DNA of 20,096 nt from a virus: positions 1-20,096 of the IMG/VR virus record IMGVR_UViG_3300049893_000101; one strand, 5' to 3'. This document shows positions 1 to 8,489 of the stretch, in pieces. The notes under the pieces were generated by a model. It saw only the letters and a list, made by a program, of their open reading frames with translations. It was not told the origin of the DNA and did no database searches. The position numbers were made by a program, and so were the translations under genes. Numbering within the stretch: position 1 is the first letter of the stretch; the number at the start of each line of letters is the position of its first letter.

Positions 1-3000
1 CCTTAGTTCCGGTGACTGCGTACTGCTTGTCATCCTTCACACGCAGGAGCTGTGCACCATTCCCGACGACGGGGATGAACCTACCCGTACGCCCGACGTG
101 CATCATGTTGTGCTCCATGGGCATGGGCCGATCCCAGTCGAAATCGAGATACATCACTCCCTGCTTGACGCTCCTGTTCTCACAGAAGTCATCAAGAGTG
201 AGCTCCTCCTTGCTGAAGAGCTGCTTGAAGACGTACGGATGCTGGAACTGTGCACCAACAGCCGTCCACTTCACACCGTCCGTAGCGATATAGACGGCGT
301 CGTTCACGAGAGCGAACTTGGTGTAGGTCGCCTCATACTCGAAGTCGTATCCCCACTTCTTCCCGAAGGCCACCACCTTGTTGATGATGTCCTGGGTTGC
401 GTTGGGGATCTTGATCGAGTCGGTCTTGATGTGGACTACCTTGAACCCCTGCTCTTGCACATAGTGCTTCAGGTCGATCATGAACAGAGCACCGCGCTTT
501 GCTACGATGTTGTCCTTGTTGCGAACGTCCCTGAAGGGGTTATCGAACTTCGCACTGGTTAGACCGTAGACAATGTTGATTACGATCTTCAGGGCATACG
601 ATAGGGCTTCGGCCGCTTCGGGGTCACCGAGGTACGGCGCGAGCTTTCCACCGAGCATTTGTTTGGCGGCGTCGTAGTCCTTGTGCTTGATAGCCAGTCG
701 GGCCTGCTTGAGCGCTGAGAAATTCTCCGTGTAGTCTCCGAAGAGATTGAGGCACTCAATGCTTGTAGGGTGCATGCTAGCGACGTCAAGGAGCGTGACA
801 TCCGTGTAAATGCCTGGCTCAGCGTAGACATAGCCTCCTTCTCCAACCTCCTCACCTCGATAAGTGCTGACTCCGAGATCGAAGGTATAGCCGGGGAAGT
901 CATTGGAGAGATCGGTGTAGACGAAGTCTCGCTGTGCATCACGATCCCCTTCGAAGATGATCCTAGCAGTGTGCTGCTGAGTAGGACTGTTAACCGGTAG
1001 TCCAGATAGCTCAGCCAGGATCTTGCGCGCGACCAGGTCTTGTTCCCTGTCATCGAGAACTGCCTCCGTTGCCAATACGTCGTTGACGCAATACTCAACG
1101 ACCTTGTCGATCATATGGTCAGGAACTGGCTGGTCCCAAGGGAGGTCCAGCTCCATGTGGTGGATACCCAGGTCGATCTCGAACTGCTTCAAGCTCTTCT
1201 TCTCAGAGCTGAAGTCCCAGATATCTGCATACGAGAGGTTGTACGCCTCGCCGAACATAGCCGACTTTTCGTTGGCGATGATCTTCTTCGAGAGCTGGAA
1301 CAGCCGCTCATTGTCGTAACCCATGTACCTCGCGTAGAGGATGTGGTTGTCGTATCTACGGTTGTTGAAGCCGACAAGCTTGTGCTTGAACAGCTCCCAC
1401 ACCTCACCAGGAGAAGGATTGACCATCCGGACAACCGTGGGGCTGCCTCGGTACTTCCAGCACACGACGAGGAGATTCGGGTAAACCTCGACATCGTAGA
1501 TGGTCAGTCGATCGTCTTCAACCAGCGGTGTGTACCCAGGCGCCTCGTCCGAACGCAGCTCAGAAGCAAACTTCATCTTCTGCACCATCTTGATGCAGTC
1601 GAGTGCGTGATTGCTGCTGTTGTTAGCAAACGCCAGAATACGAGGACGCATGTCGGTCACGTCGTAGATAATGCCCGACTCATACGCCTCATCCAGAAGC
1701 GACTTGATGAAATCCACCGAAGGCTTGGTACCTGCGTGGATCTCTTTCCTAAGGTTCCGCTCGATCAGATCGCGGTAACCCTTCTCGGTTGTAATAACCT
1801 TGTCAGTAAGCACCTTCTTCTCCTTGATAGGGAGTCCGCTGGTGAGGACGTTGACGGGGAGTGCGTTGCACTTCGTCAGCTTTCGACGAAGAGATGCTCC
1901 GCCCTTATAGACCTTCACCTCGATGCCGTCCGAGAACTTCCGGTCCAGCTTCGAGACGTCTCCCTCGTAGATGTAGTGCAGGTGCACACCTCCGCCCGAC
2001 TTGCTGATCTCGGCGTAGGTAGGAGGCCACATGCTAGCCTCTTCAAGATTTCGCTCGAGGTCCTTTCCTCCTCGAGGTCCCTTAAGGTCGAAATCGATCA
2101 CGATGTGCTGCTCAGGAACCTTGACGTAGTGGACCTTCTTCGTGTCAATATCCTTGAGCCGCGTCTTTACACGAGTCCACGAGTTGCGAGGGGTGTCCTC
2201 TTCCGTGGCGTACTGAGCCGGGTAGTCAAAATACTTCTGATCAAACAACGACTCAGTCTCATCGAGAACCAGCTTGTAGCCGTTGTCCTCAATCTTCTCC
2301 TTGTATTGCCCAGGCATTTTGAACCCAGAGAATACGTATCGGTACTGCCGTCCGTCGATCGACTTACGATCTTCGAACTCGTTGAAATAAGCCTTCAGCT
2401 CCTCACGGAACTTGTGCCTAGGCAACGCCCGATCGTTGTTGTTCTCCGAGCAATACTCCTTGTAGAGCTTCCACGCCTGCTCGAGCCAGGTGAAATCTTG
2501 CTGCTTGAACACATCAAAGTTAGCCTCAACGAAGTTGTAGAACACGTTCGTCTTGAGCATCATCTTCGTGGGGATATAGTCCCTGTAGTGGTTAGGCCCA
2601 AGAGTCTGATAGACCTCGAGACAATGCGCTGCAATAGCCCCATGCTCGAAATGGATTCGCTTCATGAGAGCTTCGTAGTGCGAAGGCTGGAACGTCTCGC
2701 CAGTAGGCTCAACATCGATCATGCGTCGGATAAGACCCGAGTTCTGATCAGTGATTGTCACTGGAGAGTTAGTAGCCATGAAGAGCATGGCCTGAATCCT
2801 GGCCTGATATGCGGCCTTGAACTTCTGGTTGATTACAATGTCCTCGTGAGCAATCACCGAGTTGAGCTTGCTGTTGTCGGTGATACGGGACAGATCAGTA
2901 TCGTGGTCTACAGCGACAAGAGGAAATGACTCGAACGCAGCCATGGAGAAATCCTTGTTAGCATTCGCCATGTCAGCAGCTCGGAATGCAGTCCAGTATC

Positions 3001-3583
3001 CATCGAACATGTCCTGGATGATGTTCAGAACAGTCGACTTACCCTTTCCACCCTTGCCATAGATAACAATACACTTCTGCAGTTTCTTGGAGTCTCCAGA
3101 GACTAGCGCTCCAATAGCCCACTCGATCTTAGCCTTCTCGTCAGGACTGTAGAGCTTGTCCATCAGTTCGTCCCAGGCCGAGTGGTCCCCCTCCTCAAGA
3201 GGATACGGAAGTCTGAACGTGGCATACACTTCGCGCTTAGGCTCGGTGTTGGACCACGCCATGATCTGGTTGAGCGGCTTGTAGTTGTCGTCGACTACCT
3301 TGCACAGCTCGAGGAACTTCTTGCGGTACCCGCTGTCGAACTTGGACATGAGCATGGGAGTATGCCCAGGACCACGCTGTTCGCATTCCGCGAGGACCTC
3401 CTTGTCAACCAGCTCTGTCACCTTGTAGGAGTCCTTGCTCCAGAGACCGGTTTCTGCATCCCAAATGGCGTAGAACTTCGTGCCCTGCACCATGAGGTCT
3501 TTTGTTCGGACAGTGAAGAACTCAGGGTAGACCTCGATTTTTCCGTTCTTGCCGTTGCGTACTGCTACGCGGAAGAAATCCAC
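1..3583 (-). CDS. Fused SF3 helicase / PrimPol / family B DNA polymerase (3' end outside window)
   Basis: A replication protein whose reading frame is open from a GTG at 3583 to the left edge (about 1194 codons visible, C-terminus missing). The GTG lies two bases after the upstream TAG and follows a GGGAGGT ribosome site. Domains in order: an SF3/D5-type helicase with Walker A GKGGKGKST (residues 176-184), Walker B-like VAVDHD (about 223), motif C FMATN (268-272) and arginine finger GLIRR (to 287). Next an archaeo-eukaryotic primase-like module with IDFD (Asp497, Asp499), SGGGVHLH (His534) and IEVKVYKG...LRRK (554-568). Then a family B polymerase: exonuclease motifs YDVEVYP (Asp697, Glu699), NNRRYD (about 745) and YCVND (831-835); polymerase motif A DVASMHPTS (933), motif B KIVINIVYG (999-1007) and motif C KTDS (Asp1055). 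The usual first Asp of DTDS is Lys. It should unwind, prime and copy phage DNA. Domain identities rest on motifs, not a search. Confidence 0.88.
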   Translation of the reverse strand, partial: MDFFRVAVRNGKNGKIEVYPEFFTVRTKDLMVQGTKFYAIWDAETGLWSKDSYKVTELVDKEVLAECEQRGPGHTPMLMSKFDSGYRKKFLELCKVVDDNYKPLNQIMAWSNTEPKREVYATFRLPYPLEEGDHSAWDELMDKLYSPDEKAKIEWAIGALVSGDSKKLQKCIVIYGKGGKGKSTVLNIIQDMFDGYWTAFRAADMANANKDFSMAAFESFPLVAVDHDTDLSRITDNSKLNSVIAHEDIVINQKFKAAYQARIQAMLFMATNSPVTITDQNSGLIRRMIDVEPTGETFQPSHYEALMKRIHFEHGAIAAHCLEVYQTLGPNHYRDYIPTKMMLKTNVFYNFVEANFDVFKQQDFTWLEQAWKLYKEYCSENNNDRALPRHKFREELKAYFNEFEDRKSIDGRQYRYVFSGFKMPGQYKEKIEDNGYKLVLDETESLFDQKYFDYPAQYATEEDTPRNSWTRVKTRLKDIDTKKVHYVKVPEQHIVIDFDLKGPRGGKDLERNLEEASMWPPTYAEISKSGGGVHLHYIYEGDVSKLDRKFSDGIEVKVYKGGASLRRKLTKCNALPVNVLTSGLPIKEKKVLTDKVITTEKGYRDLIERNLRKEIHAGTKPSVDFIKSLLDEAYESGIIYDVTDMRPRILAFANNSSNHALDCIKMVQKMKFASELRSDEAPGYTPLVEDDRLTIYDVEVYPNLLVVCWKYRGSPTVVRMVNPSPGEVWELFKHKLVGFNNRRYDNHILYARYMGYDNERLFQLSKKIIANEKSAMFGEAYNLSYADIWDFSSEKKSLKQFEIDLGIHHMELDLPWDQPVPDHMIDKVVEYCVNDVLATEAVLDDREQDLVARKILAELSGLPVNSPTQQHTARIIFEGDRDAQRDFVYTDLSNDFPGYTFDLGVSTYRGEEVGEGGYVYAEPGIYTDVTLLDVASMHPTSIECLNLFGDYTENFSALKQARLAIKHKDYDAAKQMLGGKLAPYLGDPEAAEALSYALKIVINIVYGLTSAKFDNPFRDVRNKDNIVAKRGALFMIDLKHYVQEQGFKVVHIKTDSIKIPNATQDIINKVVAFGKKWGYDFEYEATYTKFALVNDAVYIATDGVKWTAVGAQFQHPYVFKQLFSKEELTLDDFCENRSVKQGVMYLDFDWDRPMPMEHNMMHVGRTGRFIPVVGNGAQLLRVKDDKQYAVTGTK

Positions 3584-3585
3584 GT

Positions 3586-4122
3586 CTACCTCCCTTCGTT
3601 CTCCATAATATAGGCTTGCATCTGATACCAGAGTTCTACCTTTGTCTGGTCATCTTCTGGGTACTTCAACGGAAATAGTCCGCCTCTTCCGTCTGCACTG
3701 TAAGTTCGGAATGTGACTTGGTCGGTCACCTCCTCTACCAGTGCAGGCAGGTTTTTCTTGTATGCGTCGTTGCACTCGCTCAGTCCGAGGTTCTCGATAA
3801 GCTTCCAGAACCAGAACGATGGACTTCGGTCGGCCTGGAACGACAGTCGACGAGAAATGCCGATCATCATCTCCAGGAACGAACAACCCTGATCCATCCA
3901 ATGCGGGTCGACCTCTGAGATCTCAGCGTCATAGCAGAATTCACCACGCAGCTCGATGCCATCGGAAATCCGTGCATCATCGTTTGGAACAAACCAAACA
4001 AACTCGGTGGTAAATAGAGCACGCATGAGATCCCAGTAGGTCTTCCGCGATGACTTCAGATTTGGGTTAGCTACCTGACCGTAGAGCCAAACGAGATACA
4101 ACTCGTCAAGCGGCTCGTTCAT
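3586..4122 (-). CDS. Conserved phage protein of unknown function (178 aa)
   Basis: The start ATG at 4122 shares one base with the upstream stop (TGATG), so translation is probably coupled. The stop lies two bases before the GTG of the replication fusion. The protein is soluble, rich in aromatic and acidic residues, with no membrane segment and no catalytic motif that I can name. The N-terminus EPLDELYLVWLYGQV, the FVWFVPNDD segment near residue 42 and the C-terminal DGRGGLFPL...KVELWYQ segment match a family I recall as widespread in phages of actinobacteria and gut bacteria, always without a known function. Its place directly before the polymerase fusion suggests a role in DNA replication or early takeover, but that is inference from position only. 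Confidence 0.85.
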   Translation of the reverse strand: MNEPLDELYLVWLYGQVANPNLKSSRKTYWDLMRALFTTEFVWFVPNDDARISDGIELRGEFCYDAEISEVDPHWMDQGCSFLEMMIGISRRLSFQADRSPSFWFWKLIENLGLSECNDAYKKNLPALVEEVTDQVTFRTYSADGRGGLFPLKYPEDDQTKVELWYQMQAYIMENEGR

Positions 4123-4811
4123 CAGTCGTCATACGTCCTGAACTTGCGAGGCCCGATCTTGTCCTCGTGCTGGATGAACCCAAGGACCTGTTCGGTATAC
4201 TTGCCCTCGTTCTTGACGACCTCGAAGTCGACCTCCATCTTCTCGTTGCGCACGTAGAGAATGTTGGGGTCGCCAGAGCCGTAGCCGATCCTGAGGAGAT
4301 TGTCCTCTCCCACGACACGATCGACGTCAGGGATATGAGCGTCCTTCTCATCAGCAAGAACCTCGTCACCCTCATACCAGGTAAGCGTGACCATCTGGTT
4401 CTCAGACTCGTAGAACTCGTCGTGCGTAATGATATAGGGCTTCTCAGGATCCCGGTTGTCGATATCGGCCTGATCGAACTCTACATCCTTCATGTCGGTG
4501 AAGACGTTCCGAGCAACCTCCACCTTGTCGCCCGTGTCATCAGAAGAGACGTAGGCCTGCTCCTCGATGATCTCCTCAGGAGACTCGTAGTCCTTGGCCA
4601 GCTCTACAGGAGAAGGCTTAGCCTCCGGCAGACTAGCGAAGAACTTCTCAGTCTTCTGAACCGACTCATAGACAAGCCGGTCAAGATCCTCATAGAACCG
4701 CTTGCGAGTGTAGAAATATGTCGTTCCTACACCGGCAACACCGGTAGATACAATTGCAGTGAGTGCAAGCCACCGAGGAACCGGCGCCTGCAGATATGCC
4801 TTGACGTCCAT
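4122..4811 (-). CDS. Membrane-anchored conserved phage protein (229 aa)
   Basis: One membrane segment lies near the N-terminus (about residues 13-34, WLALTAIVSTGVAGVGTTYF), followed by basic RKR, so the remaining 195 acidic residues probably lie in the cytoplasm. The C-terminal domain (about 120-229) carries PYIITHDEF, TLTWYEGDEVLADE, GYGSGDPNILYVRNE and a closing EVLGF segment. I recall this pattern from many uncultured phages, where it travels with DUF6353-like proteins; no function is known. The start at 4811 has a GAGAGGT ribosome site that overlaps the end of the upstream gene, whose stop is at 4814-4816. The gene overlaps the next one by one base. Linkage to the polymerase gene raises the possibility of a membrane attachment role for replication proteins. 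Confidence 0.85.
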   Translation of the reverse strand: MDVKAYLQAPVPRWLALTAIVSTGVAGVGTTYFYTRKRFYEDLDRLVYESVQKTEKFFASLPEAKPSPVELAKDYESPEEIIEEQAYVSSDDTGDKVEVARNVFTDMKDVEFDQADIDNRDPEKPYIITHDEFYESENQMVTLTWYEGDEVLADEKDAHIPDVDRVVGEDNLLRIGYGSGDPNILYVRNEKMEVDFEVVKNEGKYTEQVLGFIQHEDKIGPRKFRTYDD

Positions 4812-4813
4812 GG

Positions 4814-5695
4814 TTACCTCTCGATCTTGTCGTAGACGACGCCATCGACGTTGAAGTCGAGCAAGATGCTCTTCTCAACACCGTTGACGAATGCTCGAAC
4901 CTCGTCCGTGTGGTGGTTGAAGATGCCGAAGTCGACGTAGTTGTCGCCGTCGTCGTACATCGTCCAGCCAACAACGCAGCCGGCAGTGGTCCGAGGGTGG
5001 CCCAGCATGTCGTACACGTCGTTCAGAAGGATATGGCCGCGTGCACGAAGGATGTCCGTCGCAACACGCTGCTGCACGTTCAGGAACCCCAGGTTCTTCT
5101 CAGCGCTCCGAGTCCAGTTCGGGTTTGCCTCGTCGAAGAAAATGGCGTACTCGCTGTAGTTGATCTTCTTGGGCTTCTTGTGAGCACCGTCGAGAACCCG
5201 GTCGCGCTCAGCAAGCTCCTTCGAGACGTTGTAGTGCAGACGAGCCTCGGCCTCCTCGCCGAAGTCCTCGCGCACCTTGCTACGATACAGGTCGTAGGAT
5301 CGCTCGAGAGCAGCGTAGGCGGCCGTAAGAGCAGCGTTACGCTTAGACAGGATACGGTGCGAACCGGTAAGGCACGCGATGCCGATTCCGCCGGCAATCA
5401 GAGCAGGGCCGTAAAGCTTGCTCAGGTCGATCCCGACCTCGATCAGAACCTCGATCTTATCCTGCACGACCTGACGGTCCGTGTAAGTCGGGTGCTCCTT
5501 GGCCATCGCGGAGATGTCCTCGAGGTGCTGGACATGCTTCTCGAGAACCGGACCAGCCTTGAGAGTTGCTCGGCTAGCAAGCACCGCGCCGCCGATGACA
5601 CCGACAACGCCAATGCCGAACAGCAGGTTGGGGCTTGCCTTCTGAGCCTTCAGAACCGTCCTGCTGGCGGCCCTGGTGACAATGCTGAAATCCAT
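4814..5695 (-). CDS. DUF6353-like membrane protein, copy A (293 aa)
   Basis: I chose the start MDFSIV at 5695 because TAAGGAGA sits eleven bases upstream and contains the stop of the previous gene; an upstream ATG at 5776 would overlap that gene by 22 codons. Two glycine-rich hydrophobic segments are visible: about residues 20-42 (SPNLLFGIGVVGVIGG) and about 98-118 (YGPALIAGGIGIACL). Then comes an alpha-helical part with RNAALTAAYAALE and a YRSKVREDFGEE block, and a C-terminal domain with VYDMLG and VVGWTMYDDGD. It is a diverged paralogue of the gene at 7707-8489: both share SP..L.GIG..G near the N-terminus, a second PA...G segment, R.AA..AAY...E and an FYDLIG/VYDMLG...GW stretch. The family name is from memory; function unknown. 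It probably acts in the cell membrane of the infected host. Confidence 0.84.
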   Translation of the reverse strand: MDFSIVTRAASRTVLKAQKASPNLLFGIGVVGVIGGAVLASRATLKAGPVLEKHVQHLEDISAMAKEHPTYTDRQVVQDKIEVLIEVGIDLSKLYGPALIAGGIGIACLTGSHRILSKRNAALTAAYAALERSYDLYRSKVREDFGEEAEARLHYNVSKELAERDRVLDGAHKKPKKINYSEYAIFFDEANPNWTRSAEKNLGFLNVQQRVATDILRARGHILLNDVYDMLGHPRTTAGCVVGWTMYDDGDNYVDFGIFNHHTDEVRAFVNGVEKSILLDFNVDGVVYDKIER

Positions 5696-5708
5696 CTTGT
5701 TTGTCTCC

Positions 5709-6347
5709 TTAACGGTCGAGGATCTCGGGGCGGGGGAGGTTGAGCAGGAATCCTTCACGGCCGGCTCGAGTAACATCGGCTCCGCGCATGTCCTGCCATC
5801 CGTACTTTTCGTCGGTGTAGTCGCCTACGATGCCGACCAGCTCGTACAGGTCGCTGACGCTGGCCTGTCCGTAACGATCACAGAGGTCGTCAAGACGCTC
5901 AATGACAGTCTCGGCCTCAGCGCGCGTCTCCAGGATGATTTCGTCGAAGTTGTGGTTTGCACGACCACGTCGACTCATCTGTCGGCCCTCGTCCTTAGAC
6001 TGGTACCGACTCCCACCCTTGCTGAAGCTTGAGTAGTTCGTGTAACCGTACCCAGAAGATCCGGTTGCAGATCGACGCCTGCTGCTCGACGATCTCGAGT
6101 CGCCGAAGAGCATACGCTCGACGCCCATACTCACCGCATCGGAGAGAGTGTCCTTCACAGCAGGGATGAGGATATCGTATGCGACATAGCCCCACACCGA
6201 GTCGGCGTCACCGCCAATGAAGATCTCCTTGATGCGCTTACCCAGAGGAGTCTTTCGCTTGACAACGTTACCGGTGATAACCTTGTCCAGCTTCTCAGGG
6301 CGAGCAGCAGGCTCCTTCTTGTTGTTGCTATTGCTGGGATACTCCAT
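5709..6347 (-). CDS. Conserved 'YPSNS' phage protein of unknown function (212 aa)
   Basis: The start ATG at 6347 follows a GGAG eight bases upstream. The N-terminus MEYPSNSNNKKE is basic and polar, then comes VITGNVVKRKTPLGKR, an amphipathic stretch VAYDILIPAVKDTLSDAV (about 56-73), a serine/arginine-rich low-complexity linker (about 83-130) and a C-terminal domain with FDEIILETRAEAETVIERL, QASVSDLYELVG and YGWQDM followed by LLNLPRPEILD. I recall the same N- and C-terminal signatures in many uncultured gut phage proteins near DUF6353-like genes; no function is established. It is the first gene of the replication operon, just after a terminator at 6361-6399, and no promoter repeat like those further right is present before it. 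It is therefore probably transcribed by read-through or from a promoter I cannot see. Confidence 0.85.
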   Translation of the reverse strand: MEYPSNSNNKKEPAARPEKLDKVITGNVVKRKTPLGKRIKEIFIGGDADSVWGYVAYDILIPAVKDTLSDAVSMGVERMLFGDSRSSSSRRRSATGSSGYGYTNYSSFSKGGSRYQSKDEGRQMSRRGRANHNFDEIILETRAEAETVIERLDDLCDRYGQASVSDLYELVGIVGDYTDEKYGWQDMRGADVTRAGREGFLLNLPRPEILDR

Positions 6348-6360
6348 CAGTTCTCCATGT

Positions 6361-6399
6361 CAAATAAGAAAGCCTAAGAACCTTGTAGGGTCCTTAGAC
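6361..6399 (-). terminator. Rho-independent terminator after the 82-aa gene
   Basis: On the minus strand the arms 6389-6399 and 6372-6382 pair over 11 bases with G-U wobbles around a 6-base loop, and a U-rich run (TTTCTTATTT) follows at 6362-6371. The loop and closing bases read CCTTGTAGGG on the plus strand, a signature shared by all five terminators in this region. It separates the micro-gene array from the replication operon. Confidence 0.75.
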
Positions 6400-6411
6400 T
6401 TCTGAGCCTGC

Positions 6412-6660
6412 TTACTTGGCGACGTACAGGATCTTGATCTGATCGATGCCAGAGGCGATCTCATCGATAGAGCTGTTCACGTAGTCCTCAACCGGCTTCT
6501 CGAGCAGGCTCGCCACCATGAACGCTCCGATGAAGATGACAACCTTCTGATAAGGCTTCTTCACGGGGGTGTTCGCGGTGATGAGTGCTGAGATAGTGGC
6601 CGAGGTACAGTACGAGGCAGTCTTCGATGCGATCAACTTGGTGATCTCGAGCTTGGTCAT
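6412..6660 (-). CDS. Small membrane protein (82 aa)
   Basis: The start ATG at 6660 follows AAGGAG and a promoter repeat (6679-6711) that leaves an untranslated leader of about 20 bases. The protein begins with a lysine- and threonine-rich helix (KLIASKTASYCTSATISALI), has one hydrophobic segment at about residues 40-54 (KVVIFIGAFMVASLL) and an acidic tail VEDYVNSSIDEIASGID. Its general layout resembles short phage proteins I recall from gut phages, with no known function. It is an independent unit: own promoter, one gene, own terminator. A role at the membrane (for example superinfection exclusion or lysis tuning) is possible but nothing in the sequence shows it. Confidence 0.8.
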   Translation of the reverse strand: MTKLEITKLIASKTASYCTSATISALITANTPVKKPYQKVVIFIGAFMVASLLEKPVEDYVNSSIDEIASGIDQIKILYVAK

Positions 6661-6829: not shown

Positions 6830-7345
6830 TCACATCCCGTTGGACTCGCGCCAGGCGGCGAACTCCTCCGGAGTCATCGTAGAGAAGTCCGGCATCTGCG
6901 CCGCGGCCTCGATGTTTTCGATGTTCTCCTGCGAAACAGGAACCTCGGTCTCGACAGGAGGCAGCGGAAGCTGACCCTGAACCTGCTCGGCAAGACCCTT
7001 CGGGATAACGCCGTTCACGAACTCAGCACCAGCCTGAGCGTTCGTAGCCAGCTCCATGAAGAGCTCGCTAAAGGCGGGGCTTCCCTCGAACTCCTCTCGG
7101 ATCTCCTGGTTCTTGACAAAGCTCTGCCCGCGACGCTTACCGACGGACAGGAGGAGGATGCGCTTGAAACCAGCAATGATCTCCTTACCATTGCCGGCCT
7201 TGATGATCTCCTGCATGGTCTCCGAGAAGCCACCCTCCTCCGAGACCTCGAGCTCCAGAAGCTCAGACTTGGTCAGGTTGAAGTAGAAGTCCTCGGTGAC
7301 GGTCTCGCCGTCGAAGTTTTCGAACGTGACGGTCTTCTTGTACAT
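6830..7345 (-). CDS. Putative tail assembly chaperone (171 aa)
   Basis: I chose the start MYKKTVTF at 7345, which follows AGGAGAAGGA; the ATG ten codons earlier has no ribosome site. The N-terminus pattern YKKTVTFENFDGETVTEDFYFNLTK, a LELE...GG helix, a KRILLLSVG segment and a SELFMELATNAQAGAEFVNG segment fit a family that I recall as tail-assembly chaperone-like in siphoviruses of Gram-positive hosts. The C-terminal 45 residues are Pro/Glu-rich and end with MTPEEFAAWRE. Such genes normally sit just before the tape measure gene; here it lies about 6.6 kb downstream of that gene, past the holin, in the micro-gene array. It has no promoter repeat of its own and follows a terminator (7366-7401). 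I see no frameshifted second product. The function is a family-recall inference. Confidence 0.82.
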   Translation of the reverse strand: MYKKTVTFENFDGETVTEDFYFNLTKSELLELEVSEEGGFSETMQEIIKAGNGKEIIAGFKRILLLSVGKRRGQSFVKNQEIREEFEGSPAFSELFMELATNAQAGAEFVNGVIPKGLAEQVQGQLPLPPVETEVPVSQENIENIEAAAQMPDFSTMTPEEFAAWRESNGM

Positions 7346-7365
7346 GGTTGGTCCTTCTCCTAGTC

Positions 7366-7401
7366 GAAAAGACAAATCCCAAACCCTTGTGGGGTCTGGG
7401 A
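7366..7401 (-). terminator. Rho-independent terminator after the 66-aa gene
   Basis: On the minus strand TCCCAGACCC pairs with GGGTTTGGGA (7392-7401 with 7377-7386) around a 5-base CACAA loop, followed by the U-rich run TTTGTCTTTT. The plus-strand core CCTTGTGGGG is the shared terminator signature. It lies between the 66-aa gene and the chaperone-like gene. Confidence 0.75.
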
Positions 7402-7706: not shown

Positions 7707-8489
7707 TTAGTATTGGCGAAAGTAGTTCACAAGCGGCAGCTCGTCATACTCGATGGACAGGCAAGGCCGTCCGTCCTCGGAAATAACGGTGCTGAACCTC
7801 ACGCTCAGAGGTCGGTCACTGTTCCAACCGACGGTCTCAGAGAATGCGGTACCTGACAGACCGATCAGATCGTAGAACTCTGTCAGGCTTGCGTAGGATC
7901 CAATCGACATCAAGATCTTGTGGTTGATGTCATTCTCAGCCTTCTTGATTGACTCCATGCTGGACTCGAAATATCGGCCCGTCAGAGAGTCATAGCAGAG
8001 AACATCGCCCTTGCCCGTGATGACGACCTCTCGAGTGGAGACTGGATTGTCGTCCACACGCTTCTGCGCCACTTCGTCACGAAGGGCTCGATGCTTCTTC
8101 TCGCCGAGCTTCTCTTCGACCTTCTCGCGGTACTCGAAGAACGCCTTCTCGGACAGCGAATATGCGGCCGCAACGGCTGCAGCACGCCGCGTTCCAATCC
8201 GATTCGCTCCGATGATGGCAGCTACTGAGAGAGTACCAACTCCGATCGCAGGAACGAAGTCCACCCAGTATCGCTTAACGATCTCGGTAGTGGTCGGGTT
8301 CTCCGGAGGGAGACCCTCGAGGAGCGGCTCGTAGTGACCTGCATTGAGGTCAAGGCCCATTCTGTAGGCCGCGCGGCCGGCAAGATATGCAGTAACGACC
8401 GTACCCGCTGCGCCGATCCCAGTCAGGATCGTAGGGCTGTTGTCGACTGCGTACTTTTCGGCCTGCTTGAGAATATCAAGCAACGTCAT
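7707..8489 (-). CDS. DUF6353-like membrane protein, copy B (260 aa)
   Basis: The start ATG at 8489 follows AAAGGAG and overlaps the end of the previous gene by 14 bases. Two membrane segments are visible: about residues 18-40 (SPTILTGIGAAGTVVTAYLAG) and about 77-97 (VPAIGVGTLSVAAIIGAN). Then RRAAAVAAAYSLSEKAFFEYREKV, an EKLGEKKHRALRDEVA helix, and a C-terminal domain with VVITGKGDVLCYDSLTGRYF, LTEFYDLIGL and VGWNSD...RPCLSIEYDE. This fits closely what I recall as DUF6353, a phage family of unknown function. It closes a five-gene coupled unit that starts at promoter P4; I see no clear terminator behind it. The window holds a second, more diverged copy at 4814-5695, in the replication operon. 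It probably acts in the host membrane. Confidence 0.86.
   Translation of the reverse strand: MTLLDILKQAEKYAVDNSPTILTGIGAAGTVVTAYLAGRAAYRMGLDLNAGHYEPLLEGLPPENPTTTEIVKRYWVDFVPAIGVGTLSVAAIIGANRIGTRRAAAVAAAYSLSEKAFFEYREKVEEKLGEKKHRALRDEVAQKRVDDNPVSTREVVITGKGDVLCYDSLTGRYFESSMESIKKAENDINHKILMSIGSYASLTEFYDLIGLSGTAFSETVGWNSDRPLSVRFSTVISEDGRPCLSIEYDELPLVNYFRQY

Follow-up and report, generated by a model that had tools for sequence, protein, structure and literature searches.

The HelPrimPolB group of family B DNA polymerases (PolB) was named by Kazlauskas et al. in 2020, who cite prior work in which the fusion had already been described, and its members combine an SF3 helicase and a PrimPol N-terminal to PolB with an unusual, divergent motif C (PMC7544198). 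One such protein, GP55 of Lactococcus phage 1706 (YP_001828703), was purified by Zhang et al. in 2025 and has helicase, RNA primase, polymerase and 3'-5' exonuclease activities (PMC12205980). It unwinds DNA using UTP or dTTP, synthesizes RNA primers with a strong site at CCAAC and GTP as the favored starter, extends primers, and carries out strand displacement and the de novo copying of M13 ssDNA. GP55 is mainly a dimer, its primase and polymerase are able to act in trans, and its polymerase domain influences its helicase activity. Priming requires a helical accessory domain (aHD), including residues Y655 and F667, and the same study states that this domain has no homology to known primase domains (PMC12205980). 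Few known replication machines are as compact as a single-chain helicase-primase-polymerase of this kind. Our literature searches returned no purified actinophage member of the group.

The AEP and SF3 modules of the NrS-1 PrimPol, AsfvPrimPol, SaPI5 and D5 primase-helicases share their folds with the protein analyzed here, but in those proteins the AEP precedes the helicase, whose part begins roughly 300-400 residues into the chain (also in the D5 counterpart E5), whereas here the helicase starts at residue 1 and a PolB has been added.

Domain organization of the window replicase

The stretch of DNA that was analyzed (the window) is an entire virus record of 20,096 bases. On its minus strand, an open reading frame runs from position 3583 to position 2, beginning with a GTG codon and leaving the left end after 1194 codons without a stop. 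Since the window is the whole record, the C-terminus of the encoded protein is not recoverable; judged by its homologues, which mostly measure 1230-1320 aa, some 45-100 residues are absent. The frame matches phrog_4210 over residues 1-1194 (1808 bits) and aligns at full length with GP55 (41% identity over 1171 aligned residues), identifying it as a HelPrimPolB replicase. An SF3 helicase module comes first, followed by an AEP domain, then by a small helical domain and finally by a PolB with 3'-5' exonuclease. An earlier note on this DNA had read helicase, primase and PolB motifs from the letters, with the helicase first; all of these motifs are present in the order that it gave, and AlphaFold2 modeling coupled with structure searches confirmed the three folds. 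In the full-length model (57 sequences; mean pLDDT 82.7, pTM 0.48) the domains are confident and the arrangement between them is uncertain. Across an alignment of 162 distinct sequences, the window protein among them, the catalytic residues of the four active sites show no or almost no variation.

The helicase module (residues 1-421; window 2321..3583, minus strand) comprises an N-terminal domain, an SF3 AAA+ core and a D5-type C-terminal domain. Its closest structural matches are the SaPI5 primase-helicase (Z 22) and the vaccinia D5 and mpox E5 proteins (Z ~18), followed by the helicase modules of AsfvPrimPol and NrS-1 (Z ~17), and Pfam assigns it to DUF5906 (1.3e-12) and Pox_D5 (1.9e-5). The Walker A motif GKGGKGKST (176-184), FMATN (268) and GLIRR (283) are in place, with a Walker A lysine, Walker B acid, sensor 1 and arginine finger; K182, N272, R286 and R287 are invariant across the 162 sequences, and D228 is found in 161. 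The D5-type order, with the AEP N-terminal to SF3, is absent from the window protein, where the helicase (1-421) precedes the AEP (442-590).

The AEP (PriS-like) catalytic domain (residues 442-590; window 1814..2260, minus strand) contains the motifs DFD (497) and SGGGVHLH (529) and a further block with VKVYKG (556) and LRRK (565). Its motifs I-III hold six residues (D497, D499, H534, H536, E555 and K557) that are invariant in the 162 sequences. Modeled alone (AlphaFold2, 89 sequences), residues 440-692 reached a pLDDT of 92 and best matched the NrS-1 PrimPol (Z 10.1 over 142 residues) and the pRN1 primase-polymerase (Z ~7), and each of the ten Foldseek matches below an E of 0.001 is a PrimPol of the NrS-1 or pRN1 sort. 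The proposal that residues 480-600 adopt an AEP fold is hence borne out by the model and by its top PDB matches. When the AEP segment was compared with the PDB as a sequence profile, no AEP came up at E <= 1, so the assignment is based on fold, motifs and homology. Chance motif matching as the source of the AEP-like region is ruled out by the fold.

A helical accessory domain follows (residues ~597-670; window 1574..1795, minus strand). The model has four helices here, those at 600-668 correspond in position to the GP55 aHD, and the alignment equates Y640 with GP55 Y655 and F652 with GP55 F667. Position 640 is Y or F in all 162 aligned sequences, and F652 is kept in 161. A structure search with these helices yielded no convincing match. 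As a separate observation, phrog_695 (DNA polymerase/primase) aligns across the AEP and the aHD (residues 477-681, window 1541-2155, E 2.6e-5), and from this alignment the aHD may have relatives among other phage primases.

The remainder of the chain is a PolB with a 3'-5' exonuclease domain (residues 690-1194; window 2..1516, minus strand). From residue 676 onward the protein matches family B polymerases, which make up all the top Foldseek matches (E to 8e-15), and aligns with KOD and Pol alpha at Z ~15 (VIA-align). The exonuclease motifs ExoI (DVEVYP, 697), ExoII (NRRYDNH, 741) and ExoIII (YCVND, 831) precede polymerase motifs A (DVASMHP, 933), B (NIVYG, 1003) and C (KTDS, 1053), and D697, E699, D745, Y831, D835 and D933 are invariant in the 162 sequences. 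Motif C (window 416..427, minus strand) reads KTDS instead of the usual DTDS, and K1053-T-D1055-S (residues 1053-1056) is identical in 162 of 162 aligned sequences. Lack of the first aspartate is therefore a group feature, with lysine for aspartate a fixed trait of HelPrimPolB, and it is compatible with activity because the active GP55 has it too.

Comparison with GP55 and proposed activity

GP55 and the window protein are alike in length class, domain order, KTDS and all the catalytic and aHD residues checked, and differ in sequence (41% identity) and in their position on separate tree branches. Seven GP55 residues examined by mutation (K189, D509, Y655, F667, D712, E714 and D949) are all identical in the window protein, where they correspond to K182, D499, Y640, F652, D697, E699 and D933. 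Every sequence and fold feature of HelPrimPolB or GP55-type replicases that we checked was found in the window protein, and no feature separating it from the group described in PMC7544198 was detected. We conclude with high confidence that the product of this gene is the replicase of the phage itself and belongs to HelPrimPolB.

Homology with GP55 provides the basis for a proposed mechanism, in which the SF3 module would unwind duplex DNA, the AEP and helical domain would lay short RNA primers, and the PolB would extend and proofread them; within a dimer, the primase of one subunit may work in trans with the polymerase of the other. By the same homology, we infer these four activities and a role in replicating the phage genome. 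The suggestion that the protein comes close to a one-protein replisome is thus supported by the biochemistry of its homologue GP55 (PMC12205980). A second polymerase or primase may exist in the phage genome beyond the 20,096-base record.

The chain could alternatively combine a polymerase and a helicase with an AEP-like part that only binds DNA or nucleotides, leaving priming to the host DnaG. The weak match of this part to the Pfam Prim-Pol family (0.13 in the full protein, 0.017 for the segment) would fit such a reading, but its fold is clearly that of a PrimPol, D497, D499, H534, E555 and K557 do not vary among the 162 sequences, both aHD residues essential for GP55 priming are kept, and the GP55 D509A mutant, altered at the equivalent of D499, is primase-deficient (PMC12205980); we consider this reading highly improbable. 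Still less credible is that the chain is cleaved or split in the cell into separate helicase-primase and polymerase proteins, as the two-ORF homologue of a Bifidobacterium phage, broken just ahead of motif A, might suggest, since none of the 162 aligned sequences has a break in the chain and GP55 was purified at full length, mainly as a dimer in which the polymerase domain affects the helicase (PMC12205980).

A chimeric assembly or frameshift artefact was ruled out: all 162 distinct sequences can be aligned from one end of the chain to the other with no stop, and residues 300-690, the stretch in which the earlier note would have taken a break as refutation, contain neither a stop nor a frameshift.

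Distribution of related replicases

The HelPrimPolB replicase of the window has many relatives. At a cut-off of E <= 1e-100, a GP55-like protein occurs in 253 of 50,697 phage records, the hosts being Arthrobacter, Gordonia, Streptomyces, Lactococcus, Curtobacterium, Rhodococcus, Microbacterium and others; many of these proteins are already annotated as 'DNA primase/polymerase'. In IMG/VR, at least 598 confirmed stretches carry relatives. The novelty that had been implied for this architecture is not sustained, given these records, the earlier naming of HelPrimPolB and the purification of GP55: the architecture is striking, yet known and biochemically characterized, and the window protein is an additional actinophage-type member. 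Viral metagenomes contain hundreds of relatives. This member alone adds little.

On a tree of 49 proteins, the Lactococcus proteins stand apart and the window protein falls within the remainder, beside a viral contig and inside a large actinophage-type clade, with whose other members it shares mostly 53-65% identity. The 'DNA primase/polymerase' proteins of the actinophages RosaAsantewaa (a Streptomyces phage; gp39), Conley (a Gordonia phage; gp61), ReqiPoco6 and Mudcat (phrog_4210) are 53-60% identical to it over the whole chain, and their loci carry the same upstream genes as the window, sequence divergence being the only difference. The chemistry described for GP55 very probably extends to the many actinophages in which the gene is present.

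The homologue in Bifidobacterium phage BitterVaud1 (L014, 1986-6616) is divided into two ORFs, one of 959 aa and the other of 368 aa, and a further ORF of 213 aa sits between them. An Rfam search for an intron at this split found none, and the arrangement reflects either an unrecognized intervening element or a two-chain polymerase.

Conserved genes upstream of the replicase

Four genes lie upstream of the window replicase on the same strand: a phrog_4678 protein directly adjacent to it (3586..4122, minus strand), a phrog_4695 protein whose N-terminal segment is hydrophobic (4122..4811, minus strand), a probable membrane protein of the DUF6353 family (PF19880; 4814..5776, minus strand; Pfam 5.9e-62) and a phrog_4079 gene (5709-6347). 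Among the 73 loci whose upstream sequence reaches 3.5 kb or more, a non-random sample picked by similarity to the window protein, each of these genes has a match on the replicase strand in 70 to 72 (phrog_4678 in 71, phrog_4695 in 70 and DUF6353 in 72), and the median gap between phrog_4678 and the replicase is 26 bases in the testable loci. The set spans 3586-6347 in the window, and the stretch 5833-6654 of a second locus (L003) belongs to the same observation. In phage 1706, gp51 was identified by profile as DUF6353 (E 8e-48) upstream of gp55; tblastn at this locus detected neither phrog_4678 nor phrog_4695, and missed DUF6353, though the profile finds it. DUF6353 thus lies on the upstream side of the replicase in almost all of the loci tested, phage 1706 included, an association that has apparently gone unreported; the literature searched contained no mention of DUF6353.

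In the 50,697 phage records, DUF6353 and the replicase have equal record counts for each genus, a match made on genus counts and not record by record: Arthrobacter 95, Gordonia 55, Streptomyces 54 and Lactococcus 13, with smaller shared counts for Siphovirus (12), Curtobacterium (7), Rhodococcus (4) and Microbacterium (4). This genus pattern is not followed by two control genes, both tail genes from the window. The matching counts link the DUF6353 and replicase genes, and are not proof of shared function. We offer, as a tentative and rather doubtful possibility, that HelPrimPolB might be served by a dedicated set of upstream partners (DUF6353, phrog_4695 and phrog_4678) that would tie the replisome to the membrane; the membrane reading of these proteins comes from a simple hydropathy scan and from records of which some bear the label 'membrane protein'. 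These conserved genes for probable membrane proteins provide a lead on where and how the HelPrimPolB replicase works in the cell. The window phage also harbors two DUF6353 paralogues (7707-8489 and 4814-5776), which flank a gene predicted to encode a tail assembly chaperone (Phage_TAC_17, 6830-7375).
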